Both the position numbers and the translations under genes were made by a program. Below, one piece after another: positions 3,361 to 62,108 of a stretch of 64,000 nucleotides of DNA (its first letter is position 1; every line of letters starts with the position of its first letter). Source of the stretch: Imbricaverruca yamaguchii. Lineage: Eukaryota > Arthropoda > Thecostraca > Neoverrucidae. The notes under the pieces are model-generated. The model saw nothing but the letters and a program-made list of their open reading frames with translations, was not told the origin of the DNA and made no database searches. The DNA lies in the NCBI GenBank assembly GCA_034440575.1, contig JAOTOL010001563.1, forward strand, positions 580,001-644,000, written 5' to 3'.

Positions 3361-4147
3361 CGATGTCCTTACATGTCACGCAGGTAGTACCGGCCAGGGT
3401 GACCCACGATGTCCTTACATGTCACGCAGGTAGTACCGGCCAGGGTGACCCACGATGTCCTTACATGTCACGCAGGTAGTACCGGCCAGGGTGACCCACG
3501 ATGTCCTCACATGTCACGCAGGTAGTACCGGCCAAGGTGACCCATGATGTCCTTACATGCCACGCAGGTAGTACCGGCCAGGGTGACCCACGATGTCCTT
3601 ACATGTCACGCAGGTAGTACCGGCCAGGGTGACCCACGATGTCCTTACATGCCACGCAGGTAGTACCGGCCAGGGTGACCCACGATGTCCTTACATGTCA
3701 CGCAGGTAGTAACGGCCAGGGTGACCCACGATGTCCTTACATGTCACGCAGGTAGTACCGGCCAGGGTGACCCACGATGTCCTCACATGTCACGCAGGTA
3801 GTACCGGCCAGGGTGACCCACGATGTCCTTACATGCCACGCAGGTAGTAACGGCCAGGGTGACCCACGATGTCCTCACATGTCACGCAGGTAGTACCGGT
3901 CAGGGTGACCCACGATGTCCTCACATGTCACGCAGGTAGTACCGGCCAGGGTGACCCACGATGTCCTTACATGTCACGCAGGTAGTAACGGCCAGGGTGA
4001 CCCACGATGTCCTTACATGTCACGCAGATAGCACCGGCCAGGGTGACCCACGATGTCCTTACATGTCACGCAGGTAGTACCGGCCAGGGTGACCCACGAT
4101 GTCCTTACATGTCACGCAGGTAGTACCGGCCAGGGTGACCCACGATG
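3359..4147 (-). repeat. 46-bp minisatellite made of an exon end plus its 5' splice site
   Basis: About 17 head-to-tail copies of a 46-bp unit run straight into the exchanger exon whose donor-side end is at 4109. On the minus strand each unit holds the last 40 bases of that exon, ending TACCTGCGTGACAT, followed by the donor GTAAGG; the next unit then restarts inside the exon sequence. The copy touching the exon is the exon end itself. Units differ by a few substitutions, for example TCC TTA versus TCC TCA on the plus strand. The intron therefore contains about 16 extra copies of a consensus-like donor with exon context. Confidence 0.95.
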
Positions 4148-4269
4148 TCTTCAATGCCCGCCATTATGTGATCCAGCGATCGCTCGTGGATTCGCTCGTT
4201 CATGGTGAGCTTGCGCTTGTTGGAGCGCTTGACGCCCAGCTTCTCCACCAGCGGCTTGATTGTCATGCC
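4109..4269 (-). CDS. NHE: Na+/H+ exchanger (SLC9A/NHE-type), exon 7 of those visible: last membrane-proximal segment
   Basis: This 161-bp exon encodes GMTIKPLVEKLGVKRS and then RIHERSLDHIMAGIEDIVGH. In animal exchangers the G-x-T-I-(K/R)-P-L-V motif marks the end of the membrane domain, and the following helix with L-D-H-x-x-x-G-I-E-D-I begins the cytoplasmic regulatory tail. The acceptor is GCCGCAG and the donor is CAT followed by GTAAGG. It starts in phase 0, matching the preceding exon that ends in FVQ, and ends in phase 2. The 3' end has been amplified into the adjoining 46-bp array. Reading past the true donor meets TAA at once, so a retained intron would truncate the protein. The next exon is outside the window. 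Confidence 0.92.
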
Positions 4270-5469: not shown

Positions 5470-7262
5470 GCGACCTCCTCCCCGACCCACCCAGCGCCAC
5501 GCCCACATGCCACCCTCAGTCAACGTTCCCGACCGGCCTCGCGCCAACCTCACTGACCCAACCCACGCCAACCTTACCCACCCACCTACGGCAACCTCAT
5601 CAGCCCATCCTCATCGACCAACCCTGTGCCGAAAACGCGCCAACCTCGCCGACCTGCCCACGTCAACTTTGCCTACCCACCTACGTCAACCTTATTAACC
5701 CATCCCATAACATCTTCATCGACCCACCCTGTGCCAATCTCTTTTCCGACCAATCCCGAGTCGACCTCTCCGACCCACCGCGCCAACTTCACCCACTCAT
5801 CTACGACAACCTCCTCGACACAACCCGCGACACCCCCACCGACACACCCCGCGCCACCCCCACCGACACAACCCGCGACACCCCCACCGACACGCCCCGC
5901 GCCACCCTCACCGACACACCCCGCGCCACCCCCGCCGTTCCACCCGCGCCACCCCCACCGACACACCCCGCGCCACCCCCACCGACACACTCCGCGCCAC
6001 CCCCACCGACACACCCGCGCCACCCCCACCGACACACCCCGCGCCACCCCCACCGACACACCCCCCCCACCGACACACCCGCGCCACCCCATCGACACAC
6101 CCCGCGCCACCCCCATCACACACCCCCACCCGCGCCACCCCCACCGACACACCCCGCGCCACCCCCCACCGACACACCCCGCGCCACCCCCACCGACACA
6201 CCCCGCGCCACCCCCACCGACACAACCCGCGACACCCCCACCGACACGCCCCGCGCCACCCTCACCGACACACCCCGCGCCACCCCCGCCGTTCCACCCG
6301 CGCCACCCCCCACCGACACAACCCCGCGCCACCCCCCCCGACACACCCCGCGCCACCCCCACCGACACACCCCGCGCCACCCCCACCGACACACCCCGCG
6401 CCACCCCCACCGACACACCCCGCGCCACCCCCACCGCACACCCCGCGCCACCCCCCCACACCCCCCACACACCCCGCGCCACCCCCACCGACACACCCCG
6501 CGCCACCCCCACCGACACACCCCGCGCCACCCCCATCGACACACCCCGCGCCACCCCCATCGACACACCCCGCGCCACCCCCCACCGACACACCCCGCGC
6601 CACCCCCACCGACACACCCCGCGCCACCCCCACCGACACACCCCGCGCCACCCCCACCGACACACCCCGCGCCACCCCCACCGACACACCCCGCGCCACC
6701 CCCATCGACACACCCCGCGCCACCCCCACCGACACACCCCGCGCCACCCCCACCGACACACCCCGCGCCACCCCACCGACACACCCCCGCCACCCCCCCC
6801 CGCCACCCCACCACACACCCCCGCCACCTCCACCCCCCGCCCCCCAACACCCCGCGCCACCCCCCCCGACCCACCCCGCGCCACCCCCACCGACACACCC
6901 GCGCCACCTCCACCGACACACCCCGCGCCACCTCCACCGACTCACCCCGCGCCACCCTCACCGACACACCCCGCGCCACCCCCGCCGTTCCACCCGCGCC
7001 ACCCCCACCGACACACCCCGCGCCACCCCCACCGACACACCCCGCGCCACCTCCACCGACACACCCCGCGCCACCCTCCCCGACCCCACCCCGCGCCACC
7101 CCCACCGACACACCCCGAGCCACCCCCACCGACACACCCCGCGCCACCCCCACCGACACACCCCGCGCCACCCCCACCGACACACCCCGCGCCACCCCCA
7201 CCGACACACCCCGCGCCACCCCCATCGACACACCCCGCGCCACCCCCACCGACCGACACGGC
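5470..7262 (-). repeat. 24-bp G-rich minisatellite starting at a 5' splice site, with older diverged units distally
   Basis: About 60 copies of a 24-bp unit (plus-strand core CGCGCCACCCCCACCGACAC) fill 5812-7258, nine bases from the exon end at 7271. On the transcript strand the units are very G-rich. The first intronic bases after the exon, GTTGGCGCGCCGTGTCGG, align with the unit GGTGGCGCGGGGTGTGTCGG. The more diverged units at 5470-5800 repeatedly show GCGCCAACCT, whose complement AGGTTGGCGC matches the AG/GTTGGCGC exon-intron junction. The array therefore appears to descend from that junction. Unit length is a multiple of three, so long meaningless open frames exist on both strands. Confidence 0.9.
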
Positions 7263-7270
7263 GCGCCAAC

Positions 7271-7473
7271 CTGCACGAAAACGGTGAAGTAGACCACCGT
7301 GATGGTGGTGGTGAGGAACATCTGCTGTTGCGGCACGTGGTGCGGATCGATGAGCAGCACGAGCGCGAACGCCACGGCGCCGCGCAGGCCGCCGTACATC
7401 ATGACGAACTTCTCCACGCCGGCGATCTGGTGCACGCGCAGCCGATTGGCCAGACCGGCCAGGATCAGCACAC
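7271..7473 (-). CDS. NHE: Na+/H+ exchanger (SLC9A/NHE-type), exon 6 of those visible
   Basis: This 203-bp exon encodes VLILAGLANRLRVHQIAGVE, then KFVMMYGGLRGAVAFALVLL, then MFLTTTITVVYFTVFVQ. The YGGLRGA(V/I)AF(A/S)L motif is among the best conserved parts of animal NHEs and lies in a late transmembrane helix whose Arg is needed for folding or activity. The last stretch is the final hydrophobic segment. Acceptor TACCGCAG and donor CAG/GTTGGC. Phase 1 in, phase 0 out, fitting both neighbours: the preceding exon ends AIG and the next begins GMTIKP. The donor is off consensus (GTTGGC) and abuts the 24-bp array. Confidence 0.96.
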
Positions 7474-12631: not shown

Positions 12632-12849
12632 CGATGGCGCGGAAGAGGGAGCAGAAGAGCAGGGTGAAGAGCACGAAGTAGGTGTTCCACTCGTGATGGT
12701 TGTGCACGGTGGCCACACCCAGCAGCATGAATATGACCGTCTCGCTACTGGACGACAGCATCTTCATCATGTACTTGATAGTCGTGTGCGACTTGGCAGA
12801 CACATTGGAGATGACGTAGTTCTTCATCGTCAGGCCGCAAAAGGTGATT
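12632..12849 (-). CDS. NHE: Na+/H+ exchanger (SLC9A/NHE-type), exon 5 of those visible
   Basis: This 218-bp exon encodes [40 protein letters not shown] and [20 protein letters not shown], ending [12 protein letters not shown]. The MKNYV-x-x-N-x-S-x-K-S-x-T-T-x-K-Y stretch is the amphipathic loop and re-entrant region typical of SLC9A1-3/5-type proteins, and S-E-T-x-I-F-M-x-L-G-V is a strongly conserved membrane helix. Acceptor CTGCGCAG, donor ATCG/GTGAGT. It enters completing an Ala codon and leaves in phase 1, both matching the adjacent exons. Its ends are free of tandem arrays. Confidence 0.96.
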
Positions 12850-13390: not shown

Positions 13391-13492
13391 GCCAGAATGC
13401 CGGACAGATGGAAAATCTCCGCGTTGAGGTAGGCCAGGTAGGACATGATGAACACGAACAGGGGCTCGATCACGCGGACGCTGCTGGTGAAC
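13391..13492 (-). CDS. NHE: Na+/H+ exchanger (SLC9A/NHE-type), exon 4 of those visible
   Basis: This 102-bp exon encodes [18 protein letters not shown] followed by [15 protein letters not shown]. The V-x-V-I-E-P-L-(F/I)-V-F-x-x-S-Y-L-(A/S)-Y-L-x-A-E motif is characteristic of animal plasma-membrane NHEs and holds a conserved Glu in a membrane helix. Acceptor TCAACAG; donor TGGC/GTGAGT. It completes an Arg codon from the previous exon and ends in phase 2. A CR1-like LINE in the same orientation ends only about 150 bases upstream of its acceptor. Confidence 0.95.
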
Positions 13493-13635: not shown

Positions 13636-16440
13636 AAAAGACATAAAGACATAAAAGATTAGTGCAACTATGAGCCACAAGGGCCCTTCTTGGTTGCACT
13701 CTGTACACTGAACCAGTTGCCCACCAAATCTGTCAATCAACCCTCCCTGTAATACTGAAAAGCAAGCCCTCTATTCTTATAATGATTGTCAATGCTGTTT
13801 TTAAAGATGTTCAATGTGCTGCTACTGACGATGTTTTCTGGCAGCTGGTTCCAGTGTTCCACTACCATGTTGGTGAAGAAAGATTGCCTTAACCTTGTTC
13901 TGCTGTGGTTAATTTTAATTTTGAATTTATGACCTCTAATTGCATCATTTCTGTTAAATTCAAACATTTCCCCAAGGTATCCCCTCTCCAGACCATTGAC
14001 AAATTTAAAGACCTCGATGACATCTCCTCTCACCCTTCCATATCTAAGTGAAAATATATTCAATTTCTTCAATCTTTCCTCACATGCCAGGTTGCTTATG
14101 CCATTAACCATTTTTGTAGCCCTCTTTTGTACTCTCTCTAAAAGCCAACAATCTTTTTCATAGCTAGGAGACCAAGCTTGGATGCAGTATTCCAAATGGG
14201 CCTGACGTATGCACAGTAAAGCTTTCTGATCACTTCCTCAATTCTGTATGATACATTCCTATTTATTGCCCCGAGCATTCTCAGTGCCTTCTTCCTGGCT
14301 TTCTTGGTCTGTTCTGATGCCCCAAGTTTTGTGTTTAGAATAACACCTAAATCCTTCTCCTGTTGAGTCACTGATAGCACTTGGCCACATATGCTGCTGC
14401 TTCATATGCTGCTTACCTACATGCATGATTTTGCACTTATCAAAATTTGAATTTTATTTGCCATTCTTCGGACCACTTCACAAGTTCGTCTAAGTCTTTT
14501 TGCAGCGAGATATGCTCATCCTGACCTGTTCTTGCCCTAAAGACCTTCAAATCATCCGCAAATTTCAAAACTTTACTGCTTAGGCCACTTTCAATGTTAT
14601 TTACAAATATAATGAACAGTAATGGCCCTAGTACTGACCCCTGGGGGACTCCACTAAGAACATTTTGCCATGATGACTTTGTACCATTTAGCATCACTCT
14701 TTGCTGTCTATCTGAAAGCCACAACTCTATCCATTTTAAGATGCTACCTGCAATACCATGGGACTGAAGCTGTATCATTAACCTTGTCAAAGGCCTTACT
14801 AAAGTCAAGATATGCTACATCAACCTGATTTCCCTGATCAAATTGTTCTGTGGCGAAGTTAAAAAAGTCCAAGAGATTTGTGAGACACGATCGTCCTTTT
14901 CTAAACCCATGTTGAGTATTTTGAATCAATCTGCTACCTTCCAGATCACTAACTATTCTATCCTTGATAATTGATTCGAGTACCTTGCAGACTAGGGATG
15001 TGAGACTTATTGGCCTATAGTTTTCAACTTTCCCTCTTTCTCCTTTCTTGAAAATAGGAACTACATTTGCCCTTTTCCAATCGGTTGGAATTTCATTATG
15101 TGAAACTGATCTACAAAATATTATACTAAGTGGAAATGCCAGTTCCTTTTCAGTTTCCCGCAACACCCTAGCATAAATATCATCAGGTCCTGCTGCCTTA
15201 TTTGGCTTTATTTTCCTGATATGATTGTAAACAACATCACTATCAATGAAATCAACATCATTTGTCAGATCCCATGTAACTGAACTATGGTGTACGGTCG
15301 GCAGATTGGTCATATCTTCCAATGTAAACACTGATTTGAACTGCTTGCTCAGCTCCTCAACCATCTCACTATCCTCACCCAATGTAGTCCCGTTTACTTC
15401 CAGTGGACCAATTGTGCTAGAAACTTTACTCAGCTTGTAGAAACTAAATAACTTTTTACTGTCCCCATTCCAGTTTCTAGCTAAATCCAGTTCCTTTGCT
15501 CGCTTTGCTGCTCTGGTTTTTTGCTTCACAGTGTCTCTAGCTTTTCGATACGACTTTAGATTAACGACATTTGAGGCTTCTTTAAAAACTCTAAATGCAG
15601 TTTTCTTAGCCTTAATTGCTTTTGTCACGTCTGGTGTAAGCCATGCTGGCTTTCCTACCCTTCTTTTGCGTCTTTGCTTTTGGGGGACATGTCTAATCTG
15701 AGTTTCCTTTAAGTAAGATTTGAACTTTTCCCACATTTCACAGGCATTTAAATTGGAGAATTCTTCTTCCCATCTGATGGCACTTAAAGCCGCTCTCATG
15801 CCGTTAAAGTCTGCTCTGTTGAAATTTGGAACTTTTACCAAATTATCCTTGATAATTTCCCCTACATGTGCCTTGAATCTAACTATGTTATGGTCACTTT
15901 TTCCCAGAGTTTCGCCTACAGTCAAGTCTTGAACCAAGTCACTTAAATCCGAGAATACAAGGTCCAAGAATGAACCATGCCTGGTAGGTTCCGATACAAA
16001 CTGGTGTAAGAACAGGTCCTCTTCAAGGCATTTCCTAAACATTTTGCATGATGGGGAGCCAACACCAGCATTTTCATAACCTTTTAGATTAAAGTCACCG
16101 AGAATAAGGCACTTCCTCTTAAAGTTTCTACTGATTTCCTCACAAATCACCTTGTCAAGCTCCAGTTGCTGAGAATGTGGCAGGGTTCCTGATCGGTAGA
16201 AAGCTCCTATCCTAAGAGTATTGCTGTTGCCTTTTCCCACAGAGACATCAAGCCAAATGGACTCCACAGACACATTTTTATCCCCACCTGCTACTTTTTG
16301 AGAACTGAATAAGCTATTCATATAGAGCATTACACCACCCCCTTTCATTGCTGGACCCCTATTGCACGAAAACATATTGTATCCCTGGATCTCATACCAA
16401 GGAATTAAAGTGTCTGGTCAAGAAAGGTAAGTTTCTTGCT
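13636..16440 (-). mobile_element. CR1-like non-LTR retrotransposon (LINE), 5'-truncated, degenerate
   Basis: The element reads on the minus strand, in sense with the exchanger gene. Endonuclease motifs come first, then reverse transcriptase, then a C-terminal region with VLNTKLG and ERVQKRATKMV typical of CR1/L2-group LINEs. The 3' end carries repeated ATGTCTTT-like words, consistent with the short 3' terminal repeats of CR1 elements. A second copy of the 3' half lies at 59.0-60.4 kb. The 5' edge is approximate; no ORF1 is visible. Confidence 0.88.
13737..16375 (-). pseudogene. LINE ORF2 remnant: AP endonuclease and reverse transcriptase
   Basis: The endonuclease part contains CLILGDFNLKGY and GKSDHNIVRF, the catalytic Asn/Asp and the terminal Ser-Asp-His motif of APE-type endonucleases. 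The RT follows with ENYRPISLTSLVCKVLESII, QHGFRKGRSCLTNLL, VAYLDFSKAFDKV (first catalytic Asp), SGVPQGSVLGPLLF and the FADDLKVF box. The frame breaks near 14790 between AFDKV and the SHGIAG segment, again near 14440-14380, and near 14190-14140. The product would nick target DNA and prime reverse transcription, but this copy cannot make it. Confidence 0.9.
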
Positions 16441-28392: not shown

Positions 28393-28547
28393 CTGGTGAC
28401 GAATGCGGTCAAAAAGCCCCAGACGATGCCGACTACGGTGCCACCTAGCGCCACCAGCAAAAACTTGAGCAGTCCTGCGGCGATGTCCAGAGCCGTGATG
28501 TTGTCCTCCCCCATCTCCACGTACGCCTCGAACATGTGGTAGAGCAC
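28393..28547 (-). CDS. NHE: Na+/H+ exchanger (SLC9A/NHE-type), exon 3 of those visible
   Basis: This 155-bp exon encodes VLYHMFEAYVEMGEDNITAL, then DIAAGLLKFLLVALGGTVVG and IVWGFLTAFVTR. It completes the active-site helix begun in the previous exon (ending NDAVTV, followed here by VLYHMF). It adds the next membrane helix, whose G-G-T-x-x-G-x-x-x-G-x-x-x-(A/S)-F motif is conserved in the family. Acceptor CGCCGCAG, donor CACCAG/GTGAGG. Phase 0 in, phase 2 out. Neither end carries a tandem array. Confidence 0.96.
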
Positions 28548-37165: not shown

Positions 37166-37371
37166 GGCTGGCCACCGCCTTCTGCCGCCATCTCAGCGTT
37201 CACCGACAGCGGTAACCACGAACACCTGAAGTTGCCACACCACGTGCACGAAGCGGCATTACGAGGCCGGTCGCCCCAGATGTCTCTGTGACGTCAAGTC
37301 AGCGGTTATTGGTGCGAGAGTTTCGCCGCGGATACTGCGAGAGATATGACGTTGCGAGAGCTCCGCTGGCG

Positions 37372-38580
37372 ATACTTACCTGTCAGCTGGCGATACTCAC
37401 CACAGTGACTGCGTCAGCTGGCGATACTCACCACAGTGACTGCGTCAGCTGGCGATACTCACCACAGTGACTGCGTCAGCTGGCGATACTCACCACAGTG
37501 ACGGCGTCAGCTGGCGATACTCACCACAGTGACTGCGTCAGCTGGCGATACTCACCACAGTGACGCGTCAGCTGGCGATACTCACCACAGTGACGGCGTC
37601 AGCTGGCGATACTCACCACAGTGACTGAGTCAGCTGGCGATACTCACCACAGTGACGCGTCGCTGGCGATACTCACCACAGTGACTGCGTCAGCTGGCGA
37701 TACTCACCACAGTGACGGCGTCAGCTGGCGATACTCACCACAGTGACTGCGTCAGCTGGCGATACTCACCACAGTGACTGCGTCAGCTGGCGATACTCAC
37801 CACAGTGACTGCGTCAGCTGGCGATACTCACCACAGTGACGGCGTCAGCTGGCGATACTCACCACAGTGACTGCGTCAGCTGGCGATACTCACCACAGTG
37901 ACTGCGTCAGCTGGCGATACTCACCACAGTGACTGGCGTCAGCTGGCGATACTCACCACAGTGACTGCGTCAGCTGGCGATACTCACCACAGTGACTGAG
38001 TCAGCTGGCGATACTCACCACAGTGACTGCGTCAGCTGGCGATACTCACCACAGTGACGGCGTCAGCTGGCGATACTCACCACAGTGACTGCGTCAGCTG
38101 GCGATACTCACCACAGTGACGGCGTCAGCTGGCGATACTCACCACAGTGACTGCGTCAGCTGGCGATACTCACCACAGTGACTGCGTCAGCTGGCGATAC
38201 TCACCACAGTGACTGCGTCAGCTGGCGATACTCACCACAGTGACGGCGTCAGCTGGCGATACTCACCACAGTGACTGCGTCAGCTGGCGATACTCACCAC
38301 AGTGACTGCGTCAGCTGGCGATACTCACCACAGTGACGGCGTCAGCTGGCGATACTCACCACAGTGACTGCGTCAGCTGGCGATACTCACCACAGTGACT
38401 GCGTCAGCTGGCGATACTCACCACAGTGACTGGTAGCTGGACTCACCACAGTGACGGCGTCAGCTGGCGATACTCACCACAGTGACTGAGTCAGCTGGCG
38501 ATCTCACCACAGTGACTGAGTCAGCTGGCGATCTCACCACAGTGACGGCGTCAGCTGGCGATACTCACCACAGTGACGGC
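37372..38580 (-). repeat. 31-bp minisatellite made of an exon end plus its 5' splice site
   Basis: About 38 tandem copies run directly into the exchanger exon ending at 38569. On the minus strand each unit is the last 15 bases of that exon (GACGCCGTCACTGTG or the synonymous variant with GCA) followed by the first 16 intronic bases, GTGAGTATCGCCAGCT. The unit bordering the exon is the exon end itself. Nearly every unit therefore has a strong GTGAGT donor in its native exon context. Two units close to the exon have lost two bases and read GTGAGATCGCC. Reading past the true donor meets TGA within seven codons. Confidence 0.97.
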
Positions 38581-38765
38581 GTCGTTGAGGAGACTCTCGC
38601 CGAACACGACAATGTAAAGCATCTCGTTGACGTGAATCTCCTCGAACACGGCGAGTACGGCCACCGGGTCGACGGCAGAGATCAGCGAGGCGAACACGAA
38701 CGTGTTGAGCAGCGGCATCTCCACCCCGTACAGCCCGGTCAAACCGATCAGGTACAGGCCGCCCC
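38569..38765 (-). CDS. NHE: Na+/H+ exchanger (SLC9A/NHE-type), exon 2 of those visible: active-site exon
   Basis: This 197-bp exon encodes [40 protein letters not shown] and [16 protein letters not shown], ending [20 protein letters not shown] and [10 protein letters not shown] are the hallmark motifs of plasma-membrane NHEs; the Asn-Asp pair binds the exchanged Na+ or H+. The acceptor is CTCCGACAG, with a poor pyrimidine tract, and the donor is CTGTG/GTGAGT. Phase 1 in and 0 out, continuous with the exons at 62.1 and 28.5 kb. Uniquely, both ends have been amplified: the donor junction in the 31-bp array and the acceptor junction in the 37-bp array. Confidence 0.97.
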
Positions 38766-39085
38766 CTGTCGGAGTACAGATCGGTCAGGTACAGGCCGCC
38801 CCTGTCGGAGTACAAACCGATCAGGTACAGGCCGCCCCCTGTCGGAGTACAAACCGGTCAGGTACAGGCCGCCCCTGTCGGAGTACAAACCGATCAGGTA
38901 CAGGCCGCCCCCTGTCGGAGTACAGATCGGTCAGGGATAGGGCGCCACTCTCTGAGTACAGATCGGTCAGGGACGACCTTGTCAAGTACAAGATGACCCT
39001 GCTGTTGTATCCAATCGAGTACAACCCGGTCGGGTACAGTCGGCTTCTGTCGGAATGCAGTCGGGTCAGGCGTAGGTCGCCTCTT
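38727..39085 (-). repeat. ~37-bp minisatellite made of a 3' splice site plus the exon start
   Basis: About eight copies lie upstream of the exon on the transcript strand, good near the exon and decaying toward 39085. Each unit contains the acceptor CTCCGACAG followed by the first ~27 exon bases beginning GGGCGGCCTGTACCTG. Some copies have one G fewer than the real exon start. The copy touching the exon is its own 5' end. Confidence 0.93.
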
Positions 39086-51815: not shown

Positions 51816-52302
51816 GGGTGAGTCGCCAGATGCAGGTGAGTCGCCAGACGCAGGTGAGTCGCCAGATGCAGGTGAGTCGCCAGATGCAGGTGAGTCGCCA
51901 GACGCGGGTGAGTCGCCAGATGCAGGTGAGTCGCCACACCCGGGTGAGTCGCCAGATGCAGGTGAGTCGCCAGACGCGGGTGAGTCGCCAGATACAGGTG
52001 AGTCGCCACACCCGGGTGAGTCGCCAGATGCAGGTAAGTCGCCAGACGCGGGTGAGTCGCCAGATGCAGGTGAGTCGCCAGACCCGGGTGAGTCGCCAGA
52101 CGCGGGTGAGTCGCCAGATGGAGGTGAGTCGCCAGATGCAGGTGAGTCGCCAGATGCGGGTGAGTCGCCAGATGCAGGTGAGTCCCCAGATGCAGGTGAG
52201 TCGCCAGATGCAGGTGAGTCGCCAGACGTGGGTGAGTCGCCAGACGCGGGTGAGTCGTCAGACGCGGGTGAGTCGCCAGACCCGGGTGAGTCGCCAGCCG
52301 CT
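51816..52302 (+). repeat. 18-bp minisatellite in which every unit is a consensus 5' splice site
   Basis: About 27 copies of GTGAGTCGCCAGATGCAG, so that each junction reads CAG/GTGAGT or CGG/GTGAGT on the plus strand. This is complementary to the 5' end of U1 snRNA over eight to nine bases. The left flank (CCACCAGACCCGG before the first GTGAGT) would suit an exon end, but no gene is recognised there. The unit encodes GESPDA repeats in one frame. Confidence 0.93.
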
Positions 52303-62034: not shown

Positions 62035-62108
62035 CGATTGTGAAGGTATTGAAGAGTGTTCCCACCACAGCGAACAGCAGAATCGTTCCCAGGTTGTCAA
62101 AGAACATC
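62035..62108 (-). CDS. NHE: Na+/H+ exchanger (SLC9A/NHE-type), first visible exon
   Basis: This 74-bp exon encodes MFFDNLGTILLFAVVGTLFN then TFTI and the first base of a Gly codon. F-F-(D/E)-N-L-G-T-I-L-x-(Y/F)-A-V-V-G-T-L is a hallmark of animal NHEs, following the Y-F-M-P-x-R motif of the preceding (unseen) exon. Acceptor CCTTTCAG, donor ATCG/GTGAGT. The Met is internal, not a start. It is read in phase 2 and leaves in phase 1, matching the exon 23 kb downstream. The 23.3-kb intron after it holds most of the arrays. Confidence 0.94.

Follow-up and report, generated by a model that had tools for sequence, protein, structure and literature searches.

The closest described counterpart of the locus presented here is the human gene IFI6, in which the short unit of a tandem repeat reportedly keeps the reading frame and several donors are used. 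For this gene (gene 6-16), Turri et al. are said to have described in 1995 a minisatellite which gives rise to multiple splice donor sites. An SLC9A-type Na+/H+ exchanger gene, which we analysed in a window of 64,000 nucleotides from Imbricaverruca yamaguchii, shares with the reported IFI6 case that, at an exon-intron boundary, every unit of a tandem repeat carries an exon end together with its 5' splice site. It differs from IFI6 in its units of 31 and 46 bp and in the truncating effect of the alternatives tested, with none of the 39 alternative donors at the active-site exon (exon B) keeping the frame open, and furthermore in the presence of an acceptor array as well, so that three junctions of one gene are concerned.

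In the 1980s splice sites were reportedly duplicated in tandem in experiments with globin genes. The likeness lies in identical tandem splice sites competing in cis; the exchanger case, however, is a natural one with 40 donors in a row, and both the donor and the acceptor of exon B are affected. Introns can also be gained when a segment that carries splice signals is duplicated in tandem. There, too, tandem duplication multiplies splice signals, but no new intron is evident in the exchanger gene and each of its arrays multiplies either only donors or only acceptors. Minisatellites within the first intron were described for earthworm metallothionein genes (PMC12783039) and resemble the present arrays as tandem repeats of minisatellite size inside a gene, but the passages on them make no mention of an exon end or a splice site within the units. 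A limited search, in the parts of the literature that it covered, returned no comparable case of junction arrays, by which we do not claim that none is in print. Compared with IFI6 as reported, the locus is distinguished by donor and acceptor arrays on one and the same exon, a further donor array within the gene and units unable to give in-frame variants.

The exchanger gene and the junctions of its exons

The exchanger gene is encoded on the minus strand, where seven exons with GT-AG ends give a single open frame. A stretch of 64 residues beside the 31-bp array matched the Na+/H+ exchanger domain PF00999 (2.8e-15) and also human NHE3 and NHE1. Human NHE3 served as query for the exon search, and the exon borders were then set by the GT-AG ends. 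The query gave seven strong matches (E 5e-6 to 6e-20), all on the minus strand and arranged as in the protein, besides weak chance matches. In the alignment of the deduced product with human NHE3 (7x2u), which reached 434.5 bits, residues 1-369 of 370 were covered and there were two gaps of one residue each. The product carries the PF00999 domain with a 12-residue motif and is collinear with human NHE, which places it among the SLC9A proteins.

The first visible exon, exon A (62035..62108, minus strand as all others), is characterized by MFFDNLGTILLFAVVGTLFNTFTI; no earlier exon was found within the window. Exon B (38569..38765), the active-site exon of 197 bases, begins with GGLYLIGL on the protein level and is supported by the PF00999 match and by collinearity with NHE3 (7x2u). 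Exon C (28393..28547) begins with VLYH and continues the NDAVTV of exon B, in agreement with the NHE3 match and the open frame. Exons D (13391..13492), E (12632..12849), F (7271..7473) and G (4109..4269) are, like exon A, based on NHE3 match, open frame and collinearity, and exon G extends from GMTIKPLVEKLG to GHPGRYYLRD with a donor in phase 2. Judging from frame and homology, the six introns are ordinary GT-AG introns and the frame is kept at every join. A LINE-like open frame (14747-16417, minus strand) lies in the intron that separates exon C from exon D, with RVT_1 above and an endonuclease match below the curated cut-off. Pieces of a retroelement lie at 182-2174 on the plus strand, with DUF7047, Integrase_H2C2 and RVT_3 above and RVT_1 and rve below the curated cut-off.

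Each of the 14 visible exon junctions was compared with its own flank (up to 2 kb) and scored against 200 shuffled queries. Three of them carry arrays of their own sequence, namely the donor of exon B, the acceptor of exon B and the donor of exon G. At the other 11 junctions the best match within the flank of up to 2 kb does not exceed the shuffled queries. With head-to-tail copies, units within the range of roughly 10-100 bp and variant repeats, the arrays are minisatellites.

Three arrays of exon ends and splice sites

The donor array of exon B (37365..38583, minus strand) is built of 31-bp units, each composed of 15 exon and 16 intron bases. The sequence-only reading, which had traced the repeat to an exon-intron boundary, is borne out by a flanking copy of the junction, which comprises 21 exact bases and scores 21 compared to a maximum of 14 in 200 shuffled queries; a chance similarity is thereby ruled out. 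TRF reports a period of 31 at 37382-38583 with 39.1 copies and 96% matches, in line with the about 38 tandem copies estimated before. The exon end GACGCCGTCACTGTG is located at 38583-38569; GTGAGTATCGCCAGCT comes after it, and the next copy adjoins. Thus, the true donor at 38568, directly behind the exon end at 38569, is the first member of the array, as had been supposed. The exon-like half of the unit agrees with the exon end. The exon end reads DAVTV followed by GTGAGT, and since DAVTV of exon B is continued by VLY of exon C collinearly with NHE3, the end of exon B is fixed at the protein level.

A search for GT(G/A)AG in 38640-37300 yielded 40 donors, 39 with GTGAG and one with GTAAG. Among the 39 GTGAG donors, the true one at 38568 included, 37 read GTGGTGAGT and two GTGGTGAGA. 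The single GTAAG donor, CAGGTAAGT at 37379, belongs to a partial unit where the sequence exits the array, and with CAG/GTAAGT (37374..37382) it is a consensus donor and the strongest among the 40 by U1 duplex. The dozens of identical donors that had been announced are therefore present in number, but they are only nearly identical, and the most distal one is stronger.

The codons repeated in each unit are those for the Asp from the Asn-Asp motif, taken as the essential residue, and for the four residues that follow. Over the 39 GTGAG copies the exon half occurs as GCC in 11 (the exon itself included), as GCA in 20, as TCA in four and in irregular form in another four. Both synonymous forms expected from the first reading were consequently found, but they are accompanied by the TCA form, which changes Ala to Ser, and by the irregular copies. 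As suggested before, unequal exchange might rewrite the end of exon B, and the splicing machinery would have to choose among the donors. The order of the unit types contains a repeated run of eight (P 0.05), too weak to indicate a higher-order structure. Past the array, the intron shows some similarity to exon B, which was set aside because it does not keep the 31-bp register and falls in a region with short repeats of its own.

Beyond the sequence-only reading, which knew one array with two synonymous exon ends, the non-synonymous TCA form, the distal donor nearer to the consensus and two further junction arrays were recognized. One of the latter, with units of 36/37 bp and five matching acceptors, occupies the acceptor side of exon B (38740..38971, minus strand). 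Its units consist of TACTCCGACAG and the first 26 (or 25) exon bases, GGGGCGGCCTGTACCTGATCGGTTTG, and their lengths alternate between 37 and 36, the shorter ones having one G fewer. The corresponding exon starts are 38765 (the true one), 38801, 38838, 38874 and 38911, and by eye degenerate copies continue upstream at about 38972-39085. The flanking copy of this acceptor junction is identical in 31 of 31 bases (score 31, maximum 11 in 200 shuffles). A CTGAY motif, presumably corresponding to the branch-point consensus, is located 20 nt upstream of the exon start in all five cases, that is at the true acceptor and at each of its four clear copies. Four of these five motifs lie in the exon part of the unit before, and the one of the outermost acceptor in a degenerate copy. 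Since the motif is supplied by the preceding unit, each acceptor unit looks like a 3' splice site with all its elements. However, CTRAY was detected within 50 nt at only three of the seven true acceptors of the gene and is absent at C, D, F and G, so that the motif need not be one which this organism uses.

The other array (3361..4149, minus strand) adjoins the donor of exon G and has units of 46 bp, consisting of the last 41 exon bases and GTAAG. Sixteen such units result, together with the real donor, in 17 donors (4108, 4062 ... 3372), 13 of them GTAAGG and four GTGAGG. The end of exon G equals the array consensus in 41 of 41 bases, the units themselves deviate from it by 0-3 bases, and the junction copy is again identical in 31 of 31 bases (score 31, maximum 12 in 200 shuffles).

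Predicted consequences of the arrays for splicing

In silico, only one of the 40 donors on the donor side of exon B keeps the frame open, and this is the exon's own. All 39 alternatives end at one common TGA; the first extra unit is translated as V-S-I-A-S-stop, whereby the TGA is the sixth codon and the predicted stop within seven codons is confirmed. On the acceptor side, 15 AGs lie between 39120 and exon B, and in combination with the normal donor only the last leaves the frame open, whereas the 14 alternatives lose the frame or run into a stop. If all 15 AGs are paired with all 40 donors, a single one of the 600 pairs is open, namely the proximal pair, and none of the 599 alternatives. Past the donor of exon G, read-through meets an in-frame TAA immediately at the start of the intron.

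The anatomy, which is that of the reported IFI6 case, could suggest that alternative donors of the arrays give rise to in-frame protein variants. In-frame isoforms were rejected, because the units of 31, 46 and 36/37 bp bring early stops: for exon B the idea is refuted at the sequence level by 0 of 39 alternative donors and 0 of 599 alternative pairs with an open frame, and at exon G the TAA stands directly after the donor. We regard the probability of this explanation as practically negligible.

The donors of exon B were further compared by their pairing with U1 and by folding; the donor weight matrix, the U1 end and the branch-point motif of the analysis were entered by hand. With the U1 end used, the distal donor at 37379 forms a duplex of -11.6 kcal/mol compared to -8.7 kcal/mol of the true donor, whose pairing equals that of 36 other donors of the array. 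In terms of predicted accessibility the true donor is the lowest of the 40 (9.7e-06) and the distal one the highest (0.029). The 17 donors at exon G range from 0.007 to 0.22, with the true donor at 0.095. An RNA structure which exposes only the true donor was therefore discarded, as the true donor ranks last among the 40 at exon B and takes a middle position at exon G. No local feature explains why the first donor of exon B should win, so that proximity would have to account for it. The way out at exon B is likely to be proximity, the true sites being those which bound the exon of 197 bases.

The same figures might be read in terms of regulated poison donors: the array would compete with the true donor, the TGA or TAA would truncate part of the transcripts, and array length together with the state of the splicing machinery would set the level of the exchanger. 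The common stop behind 39 of 39 alternative donors, the TAA at once past donor G, the 14 of 14 AGs that lose frame or stop, and a distal donor which matches the full consensus and ranks first in accessibility on folding are all compatible with such a role. An early stop in an intron is to be expected by chance, however, and arrays are scattered throughout the introns and not confined to junctions, which makes this regulation quite unlikely in our estimation.

Origin of the arrays and their significance

We consider it probable, at about 80%, that the minisatellites were born by small tandem duplications across splice junctions in minisatellite-rich sequence and that the exon-proximal copy is the working site. 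The founding duplications would have happened to span exon-intron junctions of the exchanger gene, each keeping a complete working junction on the exon side, and for this reason they could be tolerated. Slippage or unequal exchange would then have multiplied the unit towards the intron and added 38 further GTGAG donors at exon B, 16 further donors at exon G and four clear further acceptors at exon B. The exon-proximal copy would have remained the functional splice site, since the exon is shortest with it and the protein is truncated with all other choices tested, the remaining copies acting as decoys; exchange between array and exon may be continuing.

The copies themselves point to an origin from the junctions, with which they are identical over 21 exact bases at donor B and over 31 of 31 bases at acceptor B and at donor G. 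A direct repeat of 7 bp, GACATCG, is shared by the founding breakpoints at donor G, once within the exon and once in the intron, five bases from its start and directly behind the final GTAAG of the array, and would fit a duplication seeded by microhomology; at donor B no exact microhomology in register was seen by eye. The window as a whole is rich in tandem repeats: 79 TRF rows were obtained, the 52 retained cover 27% of it and many are minisatellites of 13-69 bp. Arrays with at least three copies and a period of at least 10 cover 23%, which indicates that tandem duplication is frequent here. One of them, an 18-bp array of about 27 copies (51817-52297, to about 52412), is open on the plus strand as a GESPDA repeat and on to a stop, and may represent a coding minisatellite of another gene. 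On that strand each typical unit contains a match to the donor consensus, CAGGTGAGT; this open GESPDA frame led us to reject it as a donor array.

The long repeats also raise the question of an assembly artefact, by which repeats were misassembled at the junctions. Arrays of about 0.8-1.2 kb are difficult for short reads, but the copies vary by substitutions and indels, three arrays with different periods would have to be explained, the open frame spans seven exons, and a wrong copy number would leave the finding standing. An artefact is thus very improbable.

Several observations stand against the origin by small duplications with a proximal working site. The used donor of exon B is neither the strongest nor the most accessible of its 40, and three junction arrays exceed the 0.13-0.38 expected from random founding. 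For the latter test 52 of the 79 TRF rows were kept, one per array, and the 49 with a period of at least 10 were used, the periods for the simulation being entered by hand. With founding at random places, those entirely within exons excepted, the number of arrays expected across one of the 14 junctions is 0.165 (for the 29 arrays of three or more copies) to 0.37 (for all 49), where three are seen. The chance of at least three amounts to 0.0006 to 0.006 by simulation, and a Poisson estimate for three sets of arrays gives 0.0003 to 0.007. This excess is suggestive only, because the window was picked for one of the arrays, two of them share exon B and copies of exon sequence ease recognition.

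The excess could mean that minisatellites in this lineage arise preferentially at splice junctions, owing to some property of the junction or of its transcription. Apart from the three of 14 junctions (post hoc P 0.0003-0.007), a fourth case at exon F might be added in its favour. Here a G-rich array of 24/48 bp and about 1.4 kb (5816..7253, minus strand), detected by TRF, starts 18 bp into the intron. The donor region of 20 exon and 18 intron bases matches it with a score of 13 (p 0.012 in 500 shuffles), but the 18 intron bases alone give p 0.18, and in the test of the junction against its flank 23 of 200 shuffles were equally good. The array after exon F is accordingly a possible fourth junction array and was left out of the count. 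The donor of exon F itself (CAG/GTTGGC, 7253-7271, minus strand) is weak by consensus.

Against preferred birthplaces it has to be held that one gene in one window was counted after the fact, that two of the three junction arrays belong to exon B, and that anchoring by an exon makes junction arrays easier to recognize. Moreover, among 22 non-junction arrays donor-like sites with p<0.1 were found in four on the gene strand and two on the other strand, with about two expected on each. We therefore hold such a preference to be unlikely. It would make donor and acceptor junctions alike hot spots and let exon edges evolve in concert with their arrays, the turnover of which could alter conserved coding sequence, in this gene that at the end of the active-site exon; to this wider picture we give the same low credence.

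The locus is a natural counterpart of the classic experiments reported with duplicated splice sites: 40 nearly alike donors stand in a row, the strongest is the farthest, and one leaves the protein whole. On the other side of exon B acceptors stand in a row, and the protein is left whole by the last one only. The exchanger locus would bear on the ranking of proximity, exon size and site strength. Junction arrays of this kind could mislead gene prediction, and they provide a route for the expansion of repeats into coding sequence.
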